Positions 2,678-32,000 of a stretch of 33,224 nucleotides of DNA are shown here, one piece after another. Numbering within the stretch: position 1 is the first letter of the stretch; the number at the start of each line of letters is the position of its first letter. The DNA is from Minisyncoccota bacterium (lineage in GTDB: Bacteria; Patescibacteriota; Minisyncoccia; Phycocordibacterales; UBA9973), in contig JAGOPB010000003.1 of NCBI GenBank assembly GCA_017992255.1, forward strand, positions 1 through 33,224, in the 5' to 3' direction. The notes under the pieces are model-generated. The model ran no database searches. It worked only from the letters and a program-made list of their open reading frames with translations, and had not been told where the DNA came from. The position numbers and the translations under genes were made by a program.

Positions 2678-2960
2678 GTGCGTTTATATTACCACACTCG
2701 AACATTTTTTCGAAAGAAATGAATACCAGCGTTCCCCGCGCACTGAAGCGCCACCACGCGAAGCGCGGTGCTTCTGCTGAAGCAGAAGTGCGGGGAAACG
2801 CTCAATGCAAATGCGGTCTCGGTTTTGCGAAGCAATTTTGCGGGAGGAGGATTCGCAAAACCGAGACTGATTTTTTGAAAAGTTTTTTGGGCTGGGCTTC
2901 CGCCCCGCAGGAGGGTGCGGGAGGAATGTGGGGCGGATTTCTTTTTTTGGCAGGCGGGCA
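2678..2960 (+). repeat. IR-A left arm (283-bp inverted repeat)
   Basis: This stretch recurs as the reverse complement at 5611-5893; both arms are 283 bp and match base for base wherever compared by eye. It is more GC-rich than its surroundings and contains nested small palindromes, such as CTTCTGCTGAAGCAGAAG and an imperfect ctcggttttgcgaa/ttcgcaaaaccgag pair. Open frames in it are the same on both copies and look like by-products of the repeat. It frames the small-gene block 3074-5610. Confidence 0.93.
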
Positions 2961-3073
2961 TTAAGAAAGAAAATACAGAATATTGAAATCTCGGCAAAAC
3001 CGAGATGCCGAAATTAGTTTGTGCTTGACCCACCCTCCCGTTCGCGCACAAGATTGCTCCCTTGAAAAATAAA

Positions 3074-5531: not shown

Positions 5532-5577
5532 TCAAACAGAAAACTAGGCGAGATAATTTTCTCTCGCCCACATTAAA

Positions 5578-5610
5578 GCCATTCCAAAATTTTGGAATGG
5601 CTTTTCTCTT
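5578..5610 (+). terminator. Terminator of the island gene series
   Basis: A perfect 24-bp palindrome GCCATTCCAAAA/TTTTGGAATGGC (5578-5601) is followed by TTTTCTCTTT and directly abuts the IR-A right arm. Transcription from the plus-strand promoter should end here. Confidence 0.75.
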
Positions 5611-5893
5611 TGCCCGCCTGCCAAAAAAAGAAATCCGCCCCACATTCCTCCCGCACCCTCCTGCGGGGCGGAAGCCCAGCCCAAAAAACTTTTCAAAAAA
5701 TCAGTCTCGGTTTTGCGAATCCTCCTCCCGCAAAATTGCTTCGCAAAACCGAGACCGCATTTGCATTGAGCGTTTCCCCGCACTTCTGCTTCAGCAGAAG
5801 CACCGCGCTTCGCGTGGTGGCGCTTCAGTGCGCGGGGAACGCTGGTATTCATTTCTTTCGAAAAAATGTTCGAGTGTGGTAATATAAACGCAC
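5611..5893 (-). repeat. IR-A right arm (283-bp inverted repeat)
   Basis: Reverse complement of 2678-2960. Its outer end overlaps by 3 bp the start of the 17-bp tRNA-associated repeat and of IR-B (5891). Frames in it on both strands are by-products of the repeat rather than genes. Confidence 0.93.
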
Positions 5894-6218: not shown

Positions 6219-7769
6219 ATGGAAAATAAAAAATTCTTTTTGTATGCTCGCAAGAGTACCGATGTCGAGGATAAGCAAGTTTTGAGTATTGAGGCACAAT
6301 TAACGGAATTGCGCGCGTTTGCGAGGCAAGAAAATTTGGATGTGGTAGAAGAGCTGGTGGAGAAACAATCCGCCAAAATTCCTGGTCGTCCAATATTTAA
6401 CGGAATGATGAAAAAACTAGAGCAAGGTGTAGCTCAAGGAATTTTGGCTTGGCATCCTGATCGCCTCGCGCGCAATTCGGTGGACGGCGGAGCTATTGTG
6501 TACTTTCTCGACATCGGACATCTTACGAGCTTGAAGTTTCCGACATTTTGGTTTGAAAATACATCACAGGGTAAATTTTCGTTATCAATGGCATTTGTGC
6601 AAAGCAAATATTATGTGGATTCTCTTTCCGAGAACACGAAACGAGGACTTCGCCAAAAAGTTAGAAATGGTGATTATCCAAGCCAAGCGCCTGTTGGATA
6701 TATAAATGACTCTCGTACAAAATCTATTGTTGTAGACAAGAAAAAATCTAAAATCATCCGCTTGGCTTTTGAGAAGTACGCAAAGGGTGAAAGTAGACTT
6801 GAGGATATTTCTAACTTTTTGGCGAAGAACAATATCAGTACGCGTTCTGGAAAGAAACTCCACAAATCTCGCGTAACTTTTATCCTCTCCAATCCGTTCT
6901 ACATCGGATTATTCAAATATGGTGGTGAACGCCACGAGGGAAAGTACGAGCCAATCATAACAAAGAAACTTTTTGATTCGGTGCAGTCTATGTTGAAGCT
7001 TCGAGGACGACCCGATAGAAAACCAAAGAATGAGCCACAACCATTTTGTGGCTTACTTCACTGCACCGAATGTGGAATGATGATAACTGCTGAAATCCAA
7101 AAAGGTCATGTGTATTACCGATGTTCTAAAAAGAACAAGAGTATTAAATGTACACAAGGATATATCCGAAGCGAAATTTTGGATCAGCAGTTATCATCCG
7201 AAATACAAAAAGTTTCTTTGCCAAAAGACTGGGCGAAAGAATTGTTGAACATGGCGGAAAAGGATTTCAACAATTCCGCCCAGTCTTTGACTGCTTGCGT
7301 GAAAGAGAATGGTGAGAAAATTAAAAGTATCAATGTGAAGTTAGAGCGACTTCTCAATGGCTATCTCGACCAAGATATTGAAAAAGAAATATATCGAATT
7401 GAAAAATCAAAATTGCTTTTACAGAAGAAGTCGCTCGAAGAAGAAATTGCTACTCTTCCACGCAAGCAGAATGATTGGCTCGAACCATATCGAGAGTGGA
7501 TAAAAGACGCTCAAAATATGGACAAAATTGCTTCTGATTCAGACCTTTTTGCGAAAAAGGTCAAAGCCAAAGAAATCTTTGGCTCGAACCTCCTCCTCCA
7601 AAACAAATCAGTGCGCGCCAGCGCGCCGAATTCTTTGCATTCCCCCGCAGAATCAGGGCAAACACAGTGGGACGCGCTTCGCGCGTCCCACCTCTTGGCT
7701 TCCAAAAAGCCGTTTAGTTCGTTTAAGGTGGGCGATAGAGGACTCGAACCTCTGGCCTTGATGGTGTAA
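6219..7769 (+). CDS. Large serine recombinase whose frame runs through a repeat into a tRNA
   Basis: Site-specific DNA recombinase of the serine integrase/resolvase superfamily. The N-terminal catalytic domain has FFLYARKST with nucleophile Ser13 and the DRLARN motif at 81-86. A recombinase domain follows (about 155-265), then a zinc ribbon with Cys282, Cys285, Cys302 and Cys311, a coiled coil (about 345-410) and KAKEIFGSN. From about residue 456 the frame is read from IR-B and its last ~13 residues from antisense of tRNA-Val (VGDRGLEPLALMV), so the native protein may end near 455 plus an arbitrary tail. Such read-through ends are a familiar sight in CPR recombinases and suggest the attachment site lies at the gene's 3' end. 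No Shine-Dalgarno sequence; TTATAT lies 6 nt before the ATG. It is the likely mover of the island. Confidence 0.9.
   Translation: MENKKFFLYARKSTDVEDKQVLSIEAQLTELRAFARQENLDVVEELVEKQSAKIPGRPIFNGMMKKLEQGVAQGILAWHPDRLARNSVDGGAIVYFLDIGHLTSLKFPTFWFENTSQGKFSLSMAFVQSKYYVDSLSENTKRGLRQKVRNGDYPSQAPVGYINDSRTKSIVVDKKKSKIIRLAFEKYAKGESRLEDISNFLAKNNISTRSGKKLHKSRVTFILSNPFYIGLFKYGGERHEGKYEPIITKKLFDSVQSMLKLRGRPDRKPKNEPQPFCGLLHCTECGMMITAEIQKGHVYYRCSKKNKSIKCTQGYIRSEILDQQLSSEIQKVSLPKDWAKELLNMAEKDFNNSAQSLTACVKENGEKIKSINVKLERLLNGYLDQDIEKEIYRIEKSKLLLQKKSLEEEIATLPRKQNDWLEPYREWIKDAQNMDKIASDSDLFAKKVKAKEIFGSNLLLQNKSVRASAPNSLHSPAESGQTQWDALRASHLLASKKPFSSFKVGDRGLEPLALMV
7585..7730 (-). repeat. IR-B right arm (146 bp), ending in tRNA-Val
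   Basis: Inverted copy of 5891-6035. It is preceded directly by a perfect 8-bp stem (AGCCAAAG-AAAT-CTTTGGCT, 7565-7584) and ends with the 17-bp repeat (7714-7730), whose last bases are the 3' end of tRNA-Val. The recombinase frame crosses all of it. Confidence 0.92.
7714..7730 (-). repeat. 17-bp tRNA-associated repeat, copy 3
   Basis: CACCTTAAACGAACTAA on the minus strand, beginning with the last acceptor base and discriminator A of tRNA-Val. Same placement relative to the tRNA as copy 1 at tRNA-Arg(TCT). Confidence 0.8.
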
Positions 7770-17924: not shown

Positions 17925-17956
17925 TGCTATTATACCCCCTAGGGGGTATAATAGCA
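17925..17956. promoter_or_regulatory. CsoR operator: 32-bp perfect palindrome over the csoR promoter
   Basis: A perfect palindrome centred on TACCCCCTAGGGGGTA, the G-tract form known for CsoR-family operators. The minus-strand -10 TATAAT (17934-17929) is inside it and the -35-like TTGCTA (17957-17952) overlaps its right end with 17-bp spacing. By symmetry a TATAAT also faces right. Binding would block the polymerase directly. Confidence 0.88.
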
Positions 17957-28073: not shown

Positions 28074-30536
28074 CTATTTCAACTCGTTTTTGTGTTGCGA
28101 TAACTTTCTATCGACAAGAGTTCCATAACTCTCGCCCACCGCCACTCCAACTATCAATGGAACTGATGTTTTTCCTTTTAAGAATTTTTCTGGCACCACG
28201 TGTTCCATTTTTGATTGAGCCTGTAAAATAAAATCATTTACTATCTCATTTTTTACTTCGTACACCAATTCATCGTGAACCTGCATGATCAATCGTACTG
28301 AATCCCTCCACCCAGACGCCGCAATAGCTTCATCAACGTGCAACAAGGCGAGTTTTATAATATCAGCTGTTGCCGTCCCTTGTATTGGGGCGTTGATAGC
28401 CATACGCTCCGCAGTCGCTCGTATAAAAGGTATACGAGAGGAAATATCTTTAAACATCCGACGTCTTCCAAACAATGTTTCTGTATATCCGTGTGTTCTT
28501 GCAAACTCTCGTGTTTCTTCCAAATATTCTGAGAGTCTAGAAAACTGCAAAAAATATGCATCATAAAATGCTTGTGCTTCAGACCTATCTGTTCCAAGAT
28601 TTTGCTTCAGCGCACTGACTCCCATACCATACAAAATACCAAAATTGATAATCTTTGCCCTTCTTCTCATTTCGTACGATACCTCGTGCTCCTCTACGCC
28701 AAAAACGCGCGCAGCAACAGCTGAATGCACATCTTTTCCATCATTAAAAATTTGTAATAATGTTTTATCTTGTGACAAAAGAGCAGCGACACGAAGTTCA
28801 ACTTGAGAATAGTCAAATGATACGAGACTACATCCTTTCTCTGCTATAAAAGCGTTTCGAATATTTTTTCCTAATTCGCTTTTTATAGGAAGATTTTGCA
28901 TATTAGGATTTTCAGAAGAAAACCGACCAGTCACCGCGCCTCGTTGGTTAAACCGAGCGTGTAGTCTTCTGTCTTTTCCTACAAGTTTTGGGATGACATC
29001 TATATACGTTGATAGCAATTTCGTTATTTCTCTATATTCCAATATTTTTTCAACTATTGGATGCGTTCCTCGTAGTTTATCTAGTTCACTTTCTCTGGTG
29101 GAGCGGGCACCGCCTGCTGTTTTTTTTAGTTTAATTTTCCCTTCTGGAATAAGGGTGAGTTCATCATACAGTACATCTCCAAGTTGTTTCGGAGAGCTAA
29201 TATTGAATTCGTGTCCGGCTAATTTCCAAATATCTTTTTGTAACTGTGCTTCTTTTTTGTGATACTCTTTTGACAATGAATCCAAATACTGCACATCAAG
29301 CAAAACCCCGTTAGCGCTCATTTCTTTTACCAATGGTATTAAGGGAAGTTCTACTGAATCGTACACAAAAGAAAGATTGCTTGTATGTATCGCGTTGACT
29401 ATTTTTTCTTCTGCTTCTTTGACATTTTTTGCACCAGCAAAATGAATCACATCATTTTTTTGAATATCCGTTTTTGTAGAATCCAGCAACCACAAAGCGA
29501 GCGCAAGTCTTTCAAATTTCTCATCATCCAAAACAATGGTCTCCTCTGGTTGTTCTTCAACAAGAGTTTTTGTTTTTATATTTTTTGAAATCGTTGTATC
29601 CGGAGCACTAGCGTTGAAAACTTTTTCAACTCGAGGAACTAGTGATCGGAACTCCATTTTTATGAGAAACGCACGTATGTCTTCTATACGTACACCTTCT
29701 CGATAAGTAGTGACTGGTAATGAAAAATCTATTGGCGCATCCAAACGGATAGTCGCAAGCTCTTTTGAAAAAAAAGCTTCGTCTTTGTGTTCTAAAAGCA
29801 GTTTTTGTATTCGTTCAGTTATCCCGACCACCTTGTATTCTTGTTCATTTTTTTCCAAAGCCACAAACATTTTTTCTATTGTCTTGTATTTTGTTATCAA
29901 AAGAGTTGCTGTTTTATCTCCTATACCAGGAACCCCTATGATATTGTCTGATGGGTCTCCTCGAAGACCTTTATAATCTGGTAGTGAACGTGGAGAAAAT
30001 TGATAGCGTTCGAGCACTGTTTTCTCATCATAAAGTACTGTGTCGTTGATACCCTTACGCAATGTAAAAACTTTTACTCTTTCTTTATCAACAAGTTGGA
30101 GCGTGTCCATATCTCCAGTGACAATAACTATCTCCAATTTTTTTTCATTTTTTGTTTGTTCTACTATTGTTCCTAATATATCATCTGCTTCAAATCCCGG
30201 ATAATCATACAGCGGAACTGAAAAAGCACTCAACAAATCTCGCGATGTTTTAAACTGTTTTACCAAAGATTCATCTGCTTGTCCTCGTCCTGCTTTGTAG
30301 TTTGTATACACATCGTGTCGAAAAGTCCCTCCTGGTAAGTCATACGCTGCCACTATATAGTCAGGTTTCAAATCAGTAATCGCTTTCATAAGCATTGTGG
30401 CGATACCATATAACGCTCCTGTTGGTTCCCCTGTCGTGGTGGTAAATTCCGGCAACGCATGATACGCACGATGTATAATAGCGTGCGCGTCCAACAGTAC
30501 GAGTCTTTTCTTTTTTACTGGGGTGGCAACTGACAT
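28074..30536 (-). CDS. polA: DNA polymerase I (5' nuclease plus polymerase, no active proofreading)
   Basis: 820 residues from ATG 30536. N-terminal 5'-3' exonuclease domain (about 1-285): RLVLLDAHAIIHRAYHA, YDLPGGTFRHDVYTNYKAGR, FEADDILGTI, GDMDTLQLVD, and IIGVPGIGDKTATLL. The middle (about 310-400) is a shortened, degenerate 3'-5' exonuclease region without the acidic catalytic set. The polymerase A domain is complete: TGRFSSENPNMQNLP, motif A SFDYSQVELRVAA, motif B RRRAKIINFGILYGM, motif C MQVHDELVYEV. Removes RNA primers and fills gaps. The start is chosen by TATACT 6 nt upstream; the frame to 30551 overlaps the promoter. Confidence 0.97.
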   Translation of the reverse strand: MSVATPVKKKRLVLLDAHAIIHRAYHALPEFTTTTGEPTGALYGIATMLMKAITDLKPDYIVAAYDLPGGTFRHDVYTNYKAGRGQADESLVKQFKTSRDLLSAFSVPLYDYPGFEADDILGTIVEQTKNEKKLEIVIVTGDMDTLQLVDKERVKVFTLRKGINDTVLYDEKTVLERYQFSPRSLPDYKGLRGDPSDNIIGVPGIGDKTATLLITKYKTIEKMFVALEKNEQEYKVVGITERIQKLLLEHKDEAFFSKELATIRLDAPIDFSLPVTTYREGVRIEDIRAFLIKMEFRSLVPRVEKVFNASAPDTTISKNIKTKTLVEEQPEETIVLDDEKFERLALALWLLDSTKTDIQKNDVIHFAGAKNVKEAEEKIVNAIHTSNLSFVYDSVELPLIPLVKEMSANGVLLDVQYLDSLSKEYHKKEAQLQKDIWKLAGHEFNISSPKQLGDVLYDELTLIPEGKIKLKKTAGGARSTRESELDKLRGTHPIVEKILEYREITKLLSTYIDVIPKLVGKDRRLHARFNQRGAVTGRFSSENPNMQNLPIKSELGKNIRNAFIAEKGCSLVSFDYSQVELRVAALLSQDKTLLQIFNDGKDVHSAVAARVFGVEEHEVSYEMRRRAKIINFGILYGMGVSALKQNLGTDRSEAQAFYDAYFLQFSRLSEYLEETREFARTHGYTETLFGRRRMFKDISSRIPFIRATAERMAINAPIQGTATADIIKLALLHVDEAIAASGWRDSVRLIMQVHDELVYEVKNEIVNDFILQAQSKMEHVVPEKFLKGKTSVPLIVGVAVGESYGTLVDRKLSQHKNELK

Positions 30537-30542
30537 GTAAAG

Positions 30543-30548
30543 AGTATA
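30543..30548 (-). promoter_or_regulatory. -10 box, leaderless promoter of polA
   Basis: TATACT on the minus strand, 6 nt (CTTTAC), ATG 30536. Confidence 0.65.
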
Positions 30549-30568
30549 CATCTATCAAACAATATATT

Positions 30569-30666: not shown

Positions 30667-30714
30667 CCAACCATAGCACTTTCGTGACGGCCGTCACGAA
30701 AGTGCTATGGTTGG
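30667..30714. repeat. 48-bp perfect palindrome, downstream of the Cas2-like gene
   Basis: Each 24-bp arm reads CCAACCATAGCACTTTCGTG then ACGG, and the right half is its exact reverse complement; centre GG|CC. The inner 40 bp match the palindrome at 31284-31333 except in the ninth to eleventh bases, where both arms changed together. On the minus strand it is followed by GGGTAGGTGCTTTTT, a poor T-tract for termination. Confidence 0.9.
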
Positions 30715-30746
30715 AATGAATTTTGATGTCGTACGTATTCTACGGT

Positions 30747-31262
30747 TTACAAACGTAGCGTGTGCATTTTTTTTGATTGGAGAACTTGGATATATTTTTG
30801 GAGTTTATGTTTTTTTATTTCATCAATAAATTCTTTTGGAAGTGGTCCGTATCCAGACCATACACTTTGTTGCATTTTAGTAAATCCCCACAACTTTAGT
30901 TGTGACCGTATCCAATGTCTCATACCACGAATATTTTCTGGAATATCAAACATAATAATAAGCTGGATATTTTTATCCACAACGGGACGTTTACTATTTG
31001 GTAGTAAATGCTTCACAACAAATTCACGATCTTTGAGCATGACGGTTTCTCTATCATATTTGATATATCCTTTCTTTTTTAAACGAGAGAGTTCAGTATT
31101 ATAGGTTGCCTTGTTTTTATGATAGCGAGACGCGATGATATCATACAACGCTTGTCGTTGTATCTGCATTGATCCACAAGAAAGTAATTGAGAAAGTAGT
31201 GTATCACCAAATGATGGATTGGCTAGCTCTGCGTACATGTTTTCGTACATGTCTTCTTCCAT
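30747..31262 (-). CDS. Cas2-like/PaaX-like protein with winged-helix N-terminus
   Basis: 171 residues. An N-terminal helix-turn-helix (about 20-80: QIQRQALYDIIASRYHKN, ATYNTELSRLKKKGYI) is joined to a ferredoxin-like fold with LIIMFDIPENIRGMRHWIRS (about 101-120), LKLWGFTKMQQSVWSGYGPL and a last helix. FDIPExxRxxRxxLRxxLxxxGFxxxQxSVW is the joint signature of Cas2 and of the Cas2-like domain of PaaX regulators. As no cas1, CRISPR repeats or other cas genes are visible, it is probably a DNA-binding regulator or a nuclease of another system. It has a leaderless promoter (TTGCTA-17-TATACT-6-ATG), and the -35 lies inside the upstream palindrome. The two flanking palindromes are the striking part. 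Confidence 0.8.
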   Translation of the reverse strand: MEEDMYENMYAELANPSFGDTLLSQLLSCGSMQIQRQALYDIIASRYHKNKATYNTELSRLKKKGYIKYDRETVMLKDREFVVKHLLPNSKRPVVDKNIQLIIMFDIPENIRGMRHWIRSQLKLWGFTKMQQSVWSGYGPLPKEFIDEIKKHKLQKYIQVLQSKKMHTLRL

Positions 31263-31268
31263 ATATCA

Positions 31269-31297
31269 AGTATATAAAATAAATACACCCATAGCAA
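31269..31297 (-). promoter_or_regulatory. Promoter of the Cas2-like gene, overlapping a palindrome
   Basis: TATACT at 31274-31269, 6 nt to ATG 31262, and TTGCTA (31297-31292) as -35 with 17-bp spacing. The -35 lies in the left arm of the palindrome 31284-31333, so a protein bound to the palindrome would block transcription. Confidence 0.65.
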
Positions 31298-31333
31298 CTT
31301 CGTGACGGCCGTCACGAAGTTGCTATGGGTGTA
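31284..31333. repeat. 50-bp perfect palindrome upstream of the Cas2-like gene
   Basis: Each 25-bp arm begins TACACCCATAGCAACTTCGT and ends GACGG, and the right half is its exact reverse complement; centre GG|CC. Shares CCATAGCA, TTCGTGACGG and the centre with 30667-30714. On the minus strand it is followed by TATTTATTTTATA, so it could also terminate the tsaE transcript. Confidence 0.9.
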
Positions 31334-31492: not shown

Positions 31493-31921
31493 TTATATGA
31501 TAAGTATTCTTTTTTTCTCATCTAGGTGTTCTATCGTCACTCCGAGCACCTCGTCTGGAAGTACGCTCTTTATTTTCTCTGGCCACTCTACGACGACAAG
31601 ATTTCGAGGATTCTTTATGACACTATTCCATCCTAGTTTTACTATTTCTTCAGGGGTTTCCAGTCTGTACGCGTCGATGTGAACAAGTGCATCAAAATCA
31701 TTATGAATAACTGCATAACGTTTCATGATAACGAATGTAGGAGAAATCATCGTCTGTTCGATACCCAATATTTTGCCAATAGTCTGTGCCAGTGTTGTTT
31801 TGCCAACGCCTAAATCTCCTGTGAGACACAGTATCGTGGCAGATTGTTTCTGTGTTGGCATCGAATGAAGTACCAACTTTGCAATCTCGTGTATCTGATC
31901 TATAGTAAATTCTTTCCTCAT
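31493..31921 (-). CDS. tsaE: TsaE, ATPase of the tRNA t6A modification complex
   Basis: 142 residues. Walker A GDLGVGKTT at 35-43, switch/ISPTFVIMKRY, HIDAYRL and the C-terminal VVVEWPEKI (Walker B-like WxE) are all TsaE signatures. It drives TsaBD turnover in making N6-threonylcarbamoyladenosine at tRNA position 37. The start is ATG 31921 (MRKEFTIDQ) as TATGCT lies 6 nt before it; the frame to 31972 reads through a hairpin and is rejected. Confidence 0.95.
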   Translation of the reverse strand: MRKEFTIDQIHEIAKLVLHSMPTQKQSATILCLTGDLGVGKTTLAQTIGKILGIEQTMISPTFVIMKRYAVIHNDFDALVHIDAYRLETPEEIVKLGWNSVIKNPRNLVVVEWPEKIKSVLPDEVLGVTIEHLDEKKRILII

Positions 31922-31927
31922 GCGCCC

Positions 31928-31933
31928 AGCATA
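31928..31933 (-). promoter_or_regulatory. -10 box, leaderless promoter of tsaE
   Basis: TATGCT on the minus strand, 6 nt (GGGCGC), ATG 31921. The upstream terminator hairpin (31935-31969) covers the place where the -35 would be. Confidence 0.6.
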
Positions 31934-31934
31934 C

Positions 31935-31969
31935 CATAAAAAACACACGCAGTGCGTGTGTTTTTTATG
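31935..31969 (-). terminator. Terminator of the surface protein gene
   Basis: A 16-bp perfect stem CATAAAAAACACACGC/GCGTGTGTTTTTTATG with loop AGT; the T-run is inside the stem on both strands, so it may work both ways. 31 bp after the stop of the gene to its right. Confidence 0.85.
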
Positions 31970-32000
31970 CAATCGAGTTTTGTACTCGAAATGAAACTAC

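Follow-up and report, generated by a model that had tools for sequence, protein, structure and literature searches.

A gene encoding a winged helix (wHTH) and a Cas2-like domain, bracketed by two perfect palindromes in a 33,224-nucleotide stretch of patescibacterial DNA (the window), is apparently one copy of an undescribed family of tiny, seemingly mobile units in ultra-small Patescibacteria. The explanation preferred here, with a probability of roughly 0.6, is a family of small selfish or mobile modules found across the Patescibacteria, each about 0.6 kb long and composed of an autoregulated wHTH plus Cas2-like gene and two copies of its probable own dyad site. There is good evidence for mobility of the module, and circumstantial evidence that the Cas2-like protein drives it.

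Layout of the module in the window

Table 1. Positions of the module, its promoter-like sequence, and the flanking host genes in the window.
Feature	Position	Strand	Size	Description
Downstream palindrome	30667..30714	.	48 bp	Perfect, 24-bp arms; family-wide paired site
Upstream palindrome	31284..31333	.	50 bp	Perfect, 25-bp arms; overlaps the gene promoter; family-wide paired site
wHTH + Cas2-like (PaaX_M) gene	30747..31262	-	171 aa	Pfam PaaX_M 4e-12, AlphaFold2 model, structural matches
tsaE	31493..31972	-		Host gene flanking the module; Pfam TsaE 1.3e-31
polA	28074..30551	-		Host gene on the module's other flank; Pfam DNA_pol_A 5.3e-133
Promoter-like TTGCTA-17-TATACT	31269..31297	-		-35 inside the upstream palindrome arm; consensus match only

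Both palindromes in the window are 100% complementary and have no loop, and shuffling the window 100 times produced no perfect arm longer than 10 bp, compared with the 25 bp observed; the sequence-only reading, which had described two perfect palindromes of 48 and 50 bp around a Cas2/PaaX-like gene, was correct in this respect. Between the palindromes, the Cas2-like gene is the sole gene with a family assignment. The two palindromes differ from each other at two adjacent positions per arm within a CTT/ACT triplet and in their outermost 4–5 bp, yet each of them stays perfect. In several palindromes (window, L057, L016, L061, and L071), the outermost 4–9 bp differ between the two ends of one element and yet pair within each end, and hairpin-templated copying during replication or repair could be the source of such end-specific but paired bases. 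The 18-bp centre of the palindromes occurs only at these two places of the window in the 0.70-Mb genome when up to two mismatches are allowed, and a second, broken module, likewise bracketed by palindromes, is present on contig 3 of the same genome. As a candidate order-wide repeat, the 18-bp core was rejected, since a search of 297 genomes returned a handful of scattered matches with one or two mismatches, comparable to the reversed-pattern control. Rfam microRNA matches to the palindromes were also discarded; all of them lie below the curated thresholds and are artefacts of perfect hairpins.

Other palindromes and repeats were observed in the same genome. A 54-bp perfect palindrome (G000:C20:776-829, equivalent to L285:776-829) contains TGTTTCACGTGAAACA, a sequence resembling a parS site. 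The palindromic core CTATTATACCCCCTAGGGGGTATAATAG occurs twice, at 17925–17956 of the window and at G000:C9:33104-33131; the window copy is located at the start of a CsoR-like gene adjoining a copper-type ATPase and may be a copper operator. In addition, positions 2689–3051 and 5544–5882 of the window are near-identical inverted segments near a serine-recombinase-like ORF (6219–7769).

Encoded protein

In addition to its Pfam match to PaaX_M, the window protein has a match to Cas2 (TIGR01573) that falls below the cut-off, and the profile matches of its relatives include PaaX_M in 72/72 and CRISPR_Cas2 in 66/72. The AlphaFold2 model, based on a 72-row alignment (mean pLDDT 85, pTM 0.53), has a winged helix and, after it, a ferredoxin-like domain of beta-alpha-beta-beta-alpha-beta topology. 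Its top structural matches are E. coli PaaX (residues 17–171, Z 8.0, with an rmsd of 11.6 that indicates a different relative placement of the two domains) and Cas2 chains (about residues 97–171, VIA Z up to 7.8). The fold was assigned from the sequence matches to PaaX_M and CRISPR_Cas2, because a Z near 8 alone could reflect a common arrangement. The C-terminal ligand-binding domain is absent: the protein ends at residue 171, after PaaX_M, and the match to E. coli PaaX (305 residues) stops at chain residue 180. Asp106 is invariant and may have a structural role. No nuclease or transposase motif was recognized in the Cas2-like protein, and no transposase family is listed among the profile matches of 72/72 relatives. 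Relatives were not found in viral contigs, phages, or plasmids, and the PADLOC output was limited to weak matches, to Cas2 and once to a candidate defence system (PDC-M19A, E 0.003), with none for two cargo genes.

Family-wide pairing and architecture of the sites

Among homologous genes of Patescibacteria, 64 of 107 have a matching site on both sides, compared with 10 of 482 control ORFs, and homologous Cas2-like genes thus do carry paired palindromes, as the link between gene and sites proposed from the window alone had implied. The pairing threshold was the 99th percentile of a null in which the upstream flank of one locus was compared with the downstream flank of another, a null that is conservative because related elements share sites; the remaining genes (43/107) fell below this threshold. 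Most of the shared sites are palindromic (50/64). Their arm sequence varies among loci but is matched at the opposite ends of each element, and paired sites also flank distant homologues in a phylum-wide sample.

A common site architecture was recognized in 76 paired elements (median dyad-to-dyad distance, 562 bp), comprising an 8-bp core, a spacer, and 7-bp half-sites located 11–17 bp from the dyad. Self-complementarity by distance from the dyad was 0.70–0.97 at 1–4 bp, 0.61–0.78 at 5–10 bp, 0.80–0.95 at 11–17 bp, and 0.30–0.40 from 22 bp outward. Because the half-sites keep their distance whatever the spacer sequence, a two-fold symmetric protein is indicated, and the architecture, which is similar to the PaaX operator, is suggestive of a footprint left by a symmetric dimer. 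The compensated differences seen in the window pair are genuine there, but they do not extend to the family as a rule: at positions where the two sites of an element differ, the paired state is kept in both sites in 53/373 cases versus a background of 26/327 (76 elements), and since this is only somewhat above background, strict compensation is a trait of the window pair. The proposal that compensated change reflects selection on palindromy alone was not upheld, because the paired positions conserved in the family are those of the core and outer half-sites, with weaker pairing in the spacer.

A perfect TATAAT is found at 28/76 upstream sites versus 4/76 downstream sites, and at the upstream sites it is located 14–50 bp inward of the dyad. 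As the upstream site overlaps the promoter, the Cas2-like gene is likely autoregulated. Of the two roles that the sequence-only reading had envisaged for the protein, autoregulation fits this overlap, and copying or moving of the sites fits the dispersed cognate solo sites and the empty and filled insertion sites described below.

Insertion and probable mobility of the modules

The tsaE–polA gap measures 944 bp in the window, with the module inside, versus −29 to 77 bp in 18 of the 27 loci with both genes; in other relatives with a wide gap, the insert consists of other genes, which makes the gap a general hot spot as well. In the tmk–secY gap of G370, a 684-bp module is flanked on either side by an exact 40-bp copy of the tmk 3′ end, and the uninterrupted, single-copy site is present in about ten relatives. 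The same gap is filled independently in other genomes, by Cas2-like modules (G367, G368) or by solo palindromes (G377, G406). In G392 (L197:1-1363; G392:C6:30444-31806), a mazF-like toxin–antitoxin cassette (named by eye) without a Cas2-like gene lies between two repeats, each composed of a palindrome and a 41-bp secY end, and is possibly a non-autonomous unit. Between rpsG and fusA (named by eye), a module is present in L335 and absent in L334, where a related module lies about 1 kb away; no clear target duplication was found for this insertion.

In several comparisons, homology between elements ends with the palindromes. Between L047 and L051 it spans palindrome, gene, and palindrome and ends there, the immediate flanks being unrelated, and among L064, L125, L050, and L057 it starts and stops at the palindromes; the module common to L138 and L140 is far more alike than the adjoining kinase gene. 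Only 9 of 85 element pairs at 55–65% protein identity share a neighbour, whereas tsaE at about 35–49% identity keeps polA nearby in most loci, the tsaE–polA pair being the fairer control because the control neighbour genes are biased towards shared context. A search for target duplications over 91 elements was mostly null, the window copy included, and besides the 40 bp of G370, the only exact long duplication found, it yielded one other significant case, in L058, with an uneven placement (19 and 254 bp). No genome was found to contain recent, near-identical copies by which the exact ends could be fixed, and the best protein identity was 60% (G370).

Two further observations concern the insertion sites and their contents. 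In Nomurabacteria, insertions or solo palindromes recur in three gaps between conserved genes, tmk–secY, rpsG–fusA, and pyrE–pyrF. At L009:2060-3092, a beta-lactamase-family gene is situated between a third palindrome and a Cas2-like module, which suggests cargo or a co-regulated gene.

Copy number and solo palindromes

Copy number reaches 19 in one genome of roughly 0.6 Mb, which also has solo palindromes cognate to its elements. When G370 was scanned with the sites of the elements that it carries, 38 matches of at least 80% identity, falling at about 20 distinct places, lay away from any Cas2-like gene. Shuffled palindromes (90) gave no match, and sites taken from elements of other genomes (41) gave two, both from close relatives of a G370 element. 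About eight of the G370 solos lie between convergent genes, several solos start 2–10 bp past a stop codon, and others lie at the starts of zinc-ribbon paralogues (L160 and L173; contig 3, 9473–14806 and 48530–51948), where an operator role is possible. In the genome of the window, a looser scan covering 97% of the sequence found one solo site (G000:C25:7239-7280, 33/38 identical), which is located upstream of dapF (named by eye) and beside a tRNA-Thr gene. No Cas2-like gene adjoins this solo site.

Proposed mechanism

We infer from the site geometry and the fold that the protein recognizes the palindromes: the Cas2-like domain would dimerize over the 8-bp core, and the two winged helices would touch the half-sites 11–17 bp on either side. 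Binding at the upstream site may then repress the gene's own promoter, which does overlap this site. Binding at both ends could pair them, and the protein may thereby favour the copying of the DNA bounded by the palindromes, or its insertion at a new place, frequently directly after the end of a gene and sometimes with a target duplication of about 40 bp. Solo palindromes could arise by gene loss or by mobilization in trans. Specificity would change quickly, so that each element comes to have its own arm sequence at both ends. An observation that speaks against this model of mobility is that other genes have such a site at their start in several cases (zinc-ribbon paralogues in G370; dapF in G000, with the site upstream of it), as expected of operators. 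A further step, tentative and on balance unlikely, would be to regard the modules as transposable elements of a new class, whose only encoded mobility protein is a Cas2-like dimer fused to winged helices. This dimer would recognize ends that are dyads and possibly act in hairpin form, and insertion would generate duplications of about 40 bp.

Alternative explanations

A reading that is possible, although not probable, is that the gene encodes a horizontally transferred PaaX-like autorepressor with two operators, one at the promoter and one downstream for looping or read-through control, and a small regulon at the solo sites, the whole moving by ordinary transfer and recombination. The operator of PaaX is TGATTC-N27-GAATCA, and PaaX represses its own promoter (PMC9493321). 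The module protein is closest in fold to PaaX over its whole length and shares with it the N-terminal wHTH and the Cas2-like central domain (PaaX_M), and, as predicted from sequence, the widely spaced dyad operator geometry at the promoter and autoregulation (PMC9493321). The promoters overlapped by upstream sites, the solo sites at gene starts, and the L138/L140 module, which moved along with upstream flanking DNA, are also as expected of an autorepressor. Unlike PaaX, however, the module protein lacks the C-terminal ligand domain, its site is present on both sides of its own gene, and the module is multi-copy and variable in position. An autorepressor would leave unexplained the matching downstream site in most members, the eight or so solos between convergent genes, the homology ending at the palindromes, the 40-bp target duplication, and the 19 copies in a single 0.6-Mb genome.

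It is improbable that the module is cargo of another enzyme, moved by an integrase or recombinase in trans or by illegitimate recombination at gene ends, with the repeats as attachment or repair scars and the palindromes as marks of hot spots. Such passive movement would be in keeping with the lack of a recognized catalytic motif in the protein, with the acceptance of unrelated genes by the tmk–secY and tsaE–polA gaps, and with G424 (L209; G424:C60:45900-50248), in which an ATPase-like gene, with no palindromes, sits between duplicate copies of 41 bp from the secY 3′ end, so that long duplication may be a general insertion route in these bacteria. However, cognate solo palindromes are specific to genomes with the matching gene, and the ends of each module match each other, features of which a passive cargo has no need.

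A pair of ordinary hairpin terminators (the alternative named in the sequence-only reading), serving the gene and its neighbour respectively, is a very improbable explanation: both window palindromes score as terminator-like, with weak T-containing tails, but the upstream palindrome sits between promoter and start codon, the sites of other members are often imperfect in the spacer and would form poor RNA hairpins while core and half-sites remain fixed, and terminators fail to account for matching pairs that differ from locus to locus.

Comparison with known systems

The module shares with CRISPR Cas2 the ferredoxin-like Cas2 fold and a conserved Asp, and an insertion with duplication of tens of bp, as in G370, recalls repeat duplication; in contrast to Cas2, the domain is fused to a wHTH, the immediate neighbours are tsaE and polA and not cas1, and palindromes bracket the gene. 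Casposons are mobile elements that are linked to a CRISPR adaptation protein and encode Cas1. The module resembles them in linking mobility to such a protein, but in the window it consists of a single Cas2-like gene with no Cas1. IS200/IS605 elements are tiny and have palindromic ends and a ferredoxin-like core in their protein, all of which are seen in the module, but no Y1 transposase domain was detected in the latter. Insertion of IS200/IS605 elements is not accompanied by larger target duplications (PMC2817692).

The system most similar in function is RAYT/REP, the transposase of which is unrelated. In the RAYT (TnpA-REP) system, as here, a gene lies between two palindromes, cognate palindromes are dispersed in the same genome, and gene and palindromes change together (PMC2817692); the palindromes flanking rayt genes also change yet stay palindromic (PMC2817692). 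The module protein, in contrast, is a wHTH plus Cas2-like protein in which no Y1/Transposase_17 (PF01797) domain was detected, and the modules have few copies per palindrome, far below typical REPs, many lineages per genome, and largely symmetric sites. Membership in RAYT/REP, one origin suggested for the window palindromes, therefore fails, as no Y1 transposase domain was found and the relatives uniformly match PaaX_M. No earlier description of such modules was found in the open-access full-text literature (most subscription papers and bioRxiv lie outside this search), and the novelty of the family is judged from these failed memberships, the comparison of domain content, and a literature search limited to open-access papers.

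Biological meaning

If the preferred explanation is true, the modules would be selfish DNA of a widespread, unrecognized class, residing in bacterial genomes that are among the smallest and putting a CRISPR-type fold to use outside CRISPR. The Cas2 fold would then move or mark DNA in the absence of Cas1, with a bearing on the question of how Cas2 came into CRISPR adaptation, and the more tentative view of the modules as a new class of transposable element would, if true, provide a Cas1-free precedent for the Cas2 fold in DNA mobility. Each element would combine a protein with its probable site, so that a code from wHTH to half-site could be read from genomes, and many genes of Patescibacteria annotated as PaaX or Cas2 may need to be renamed.
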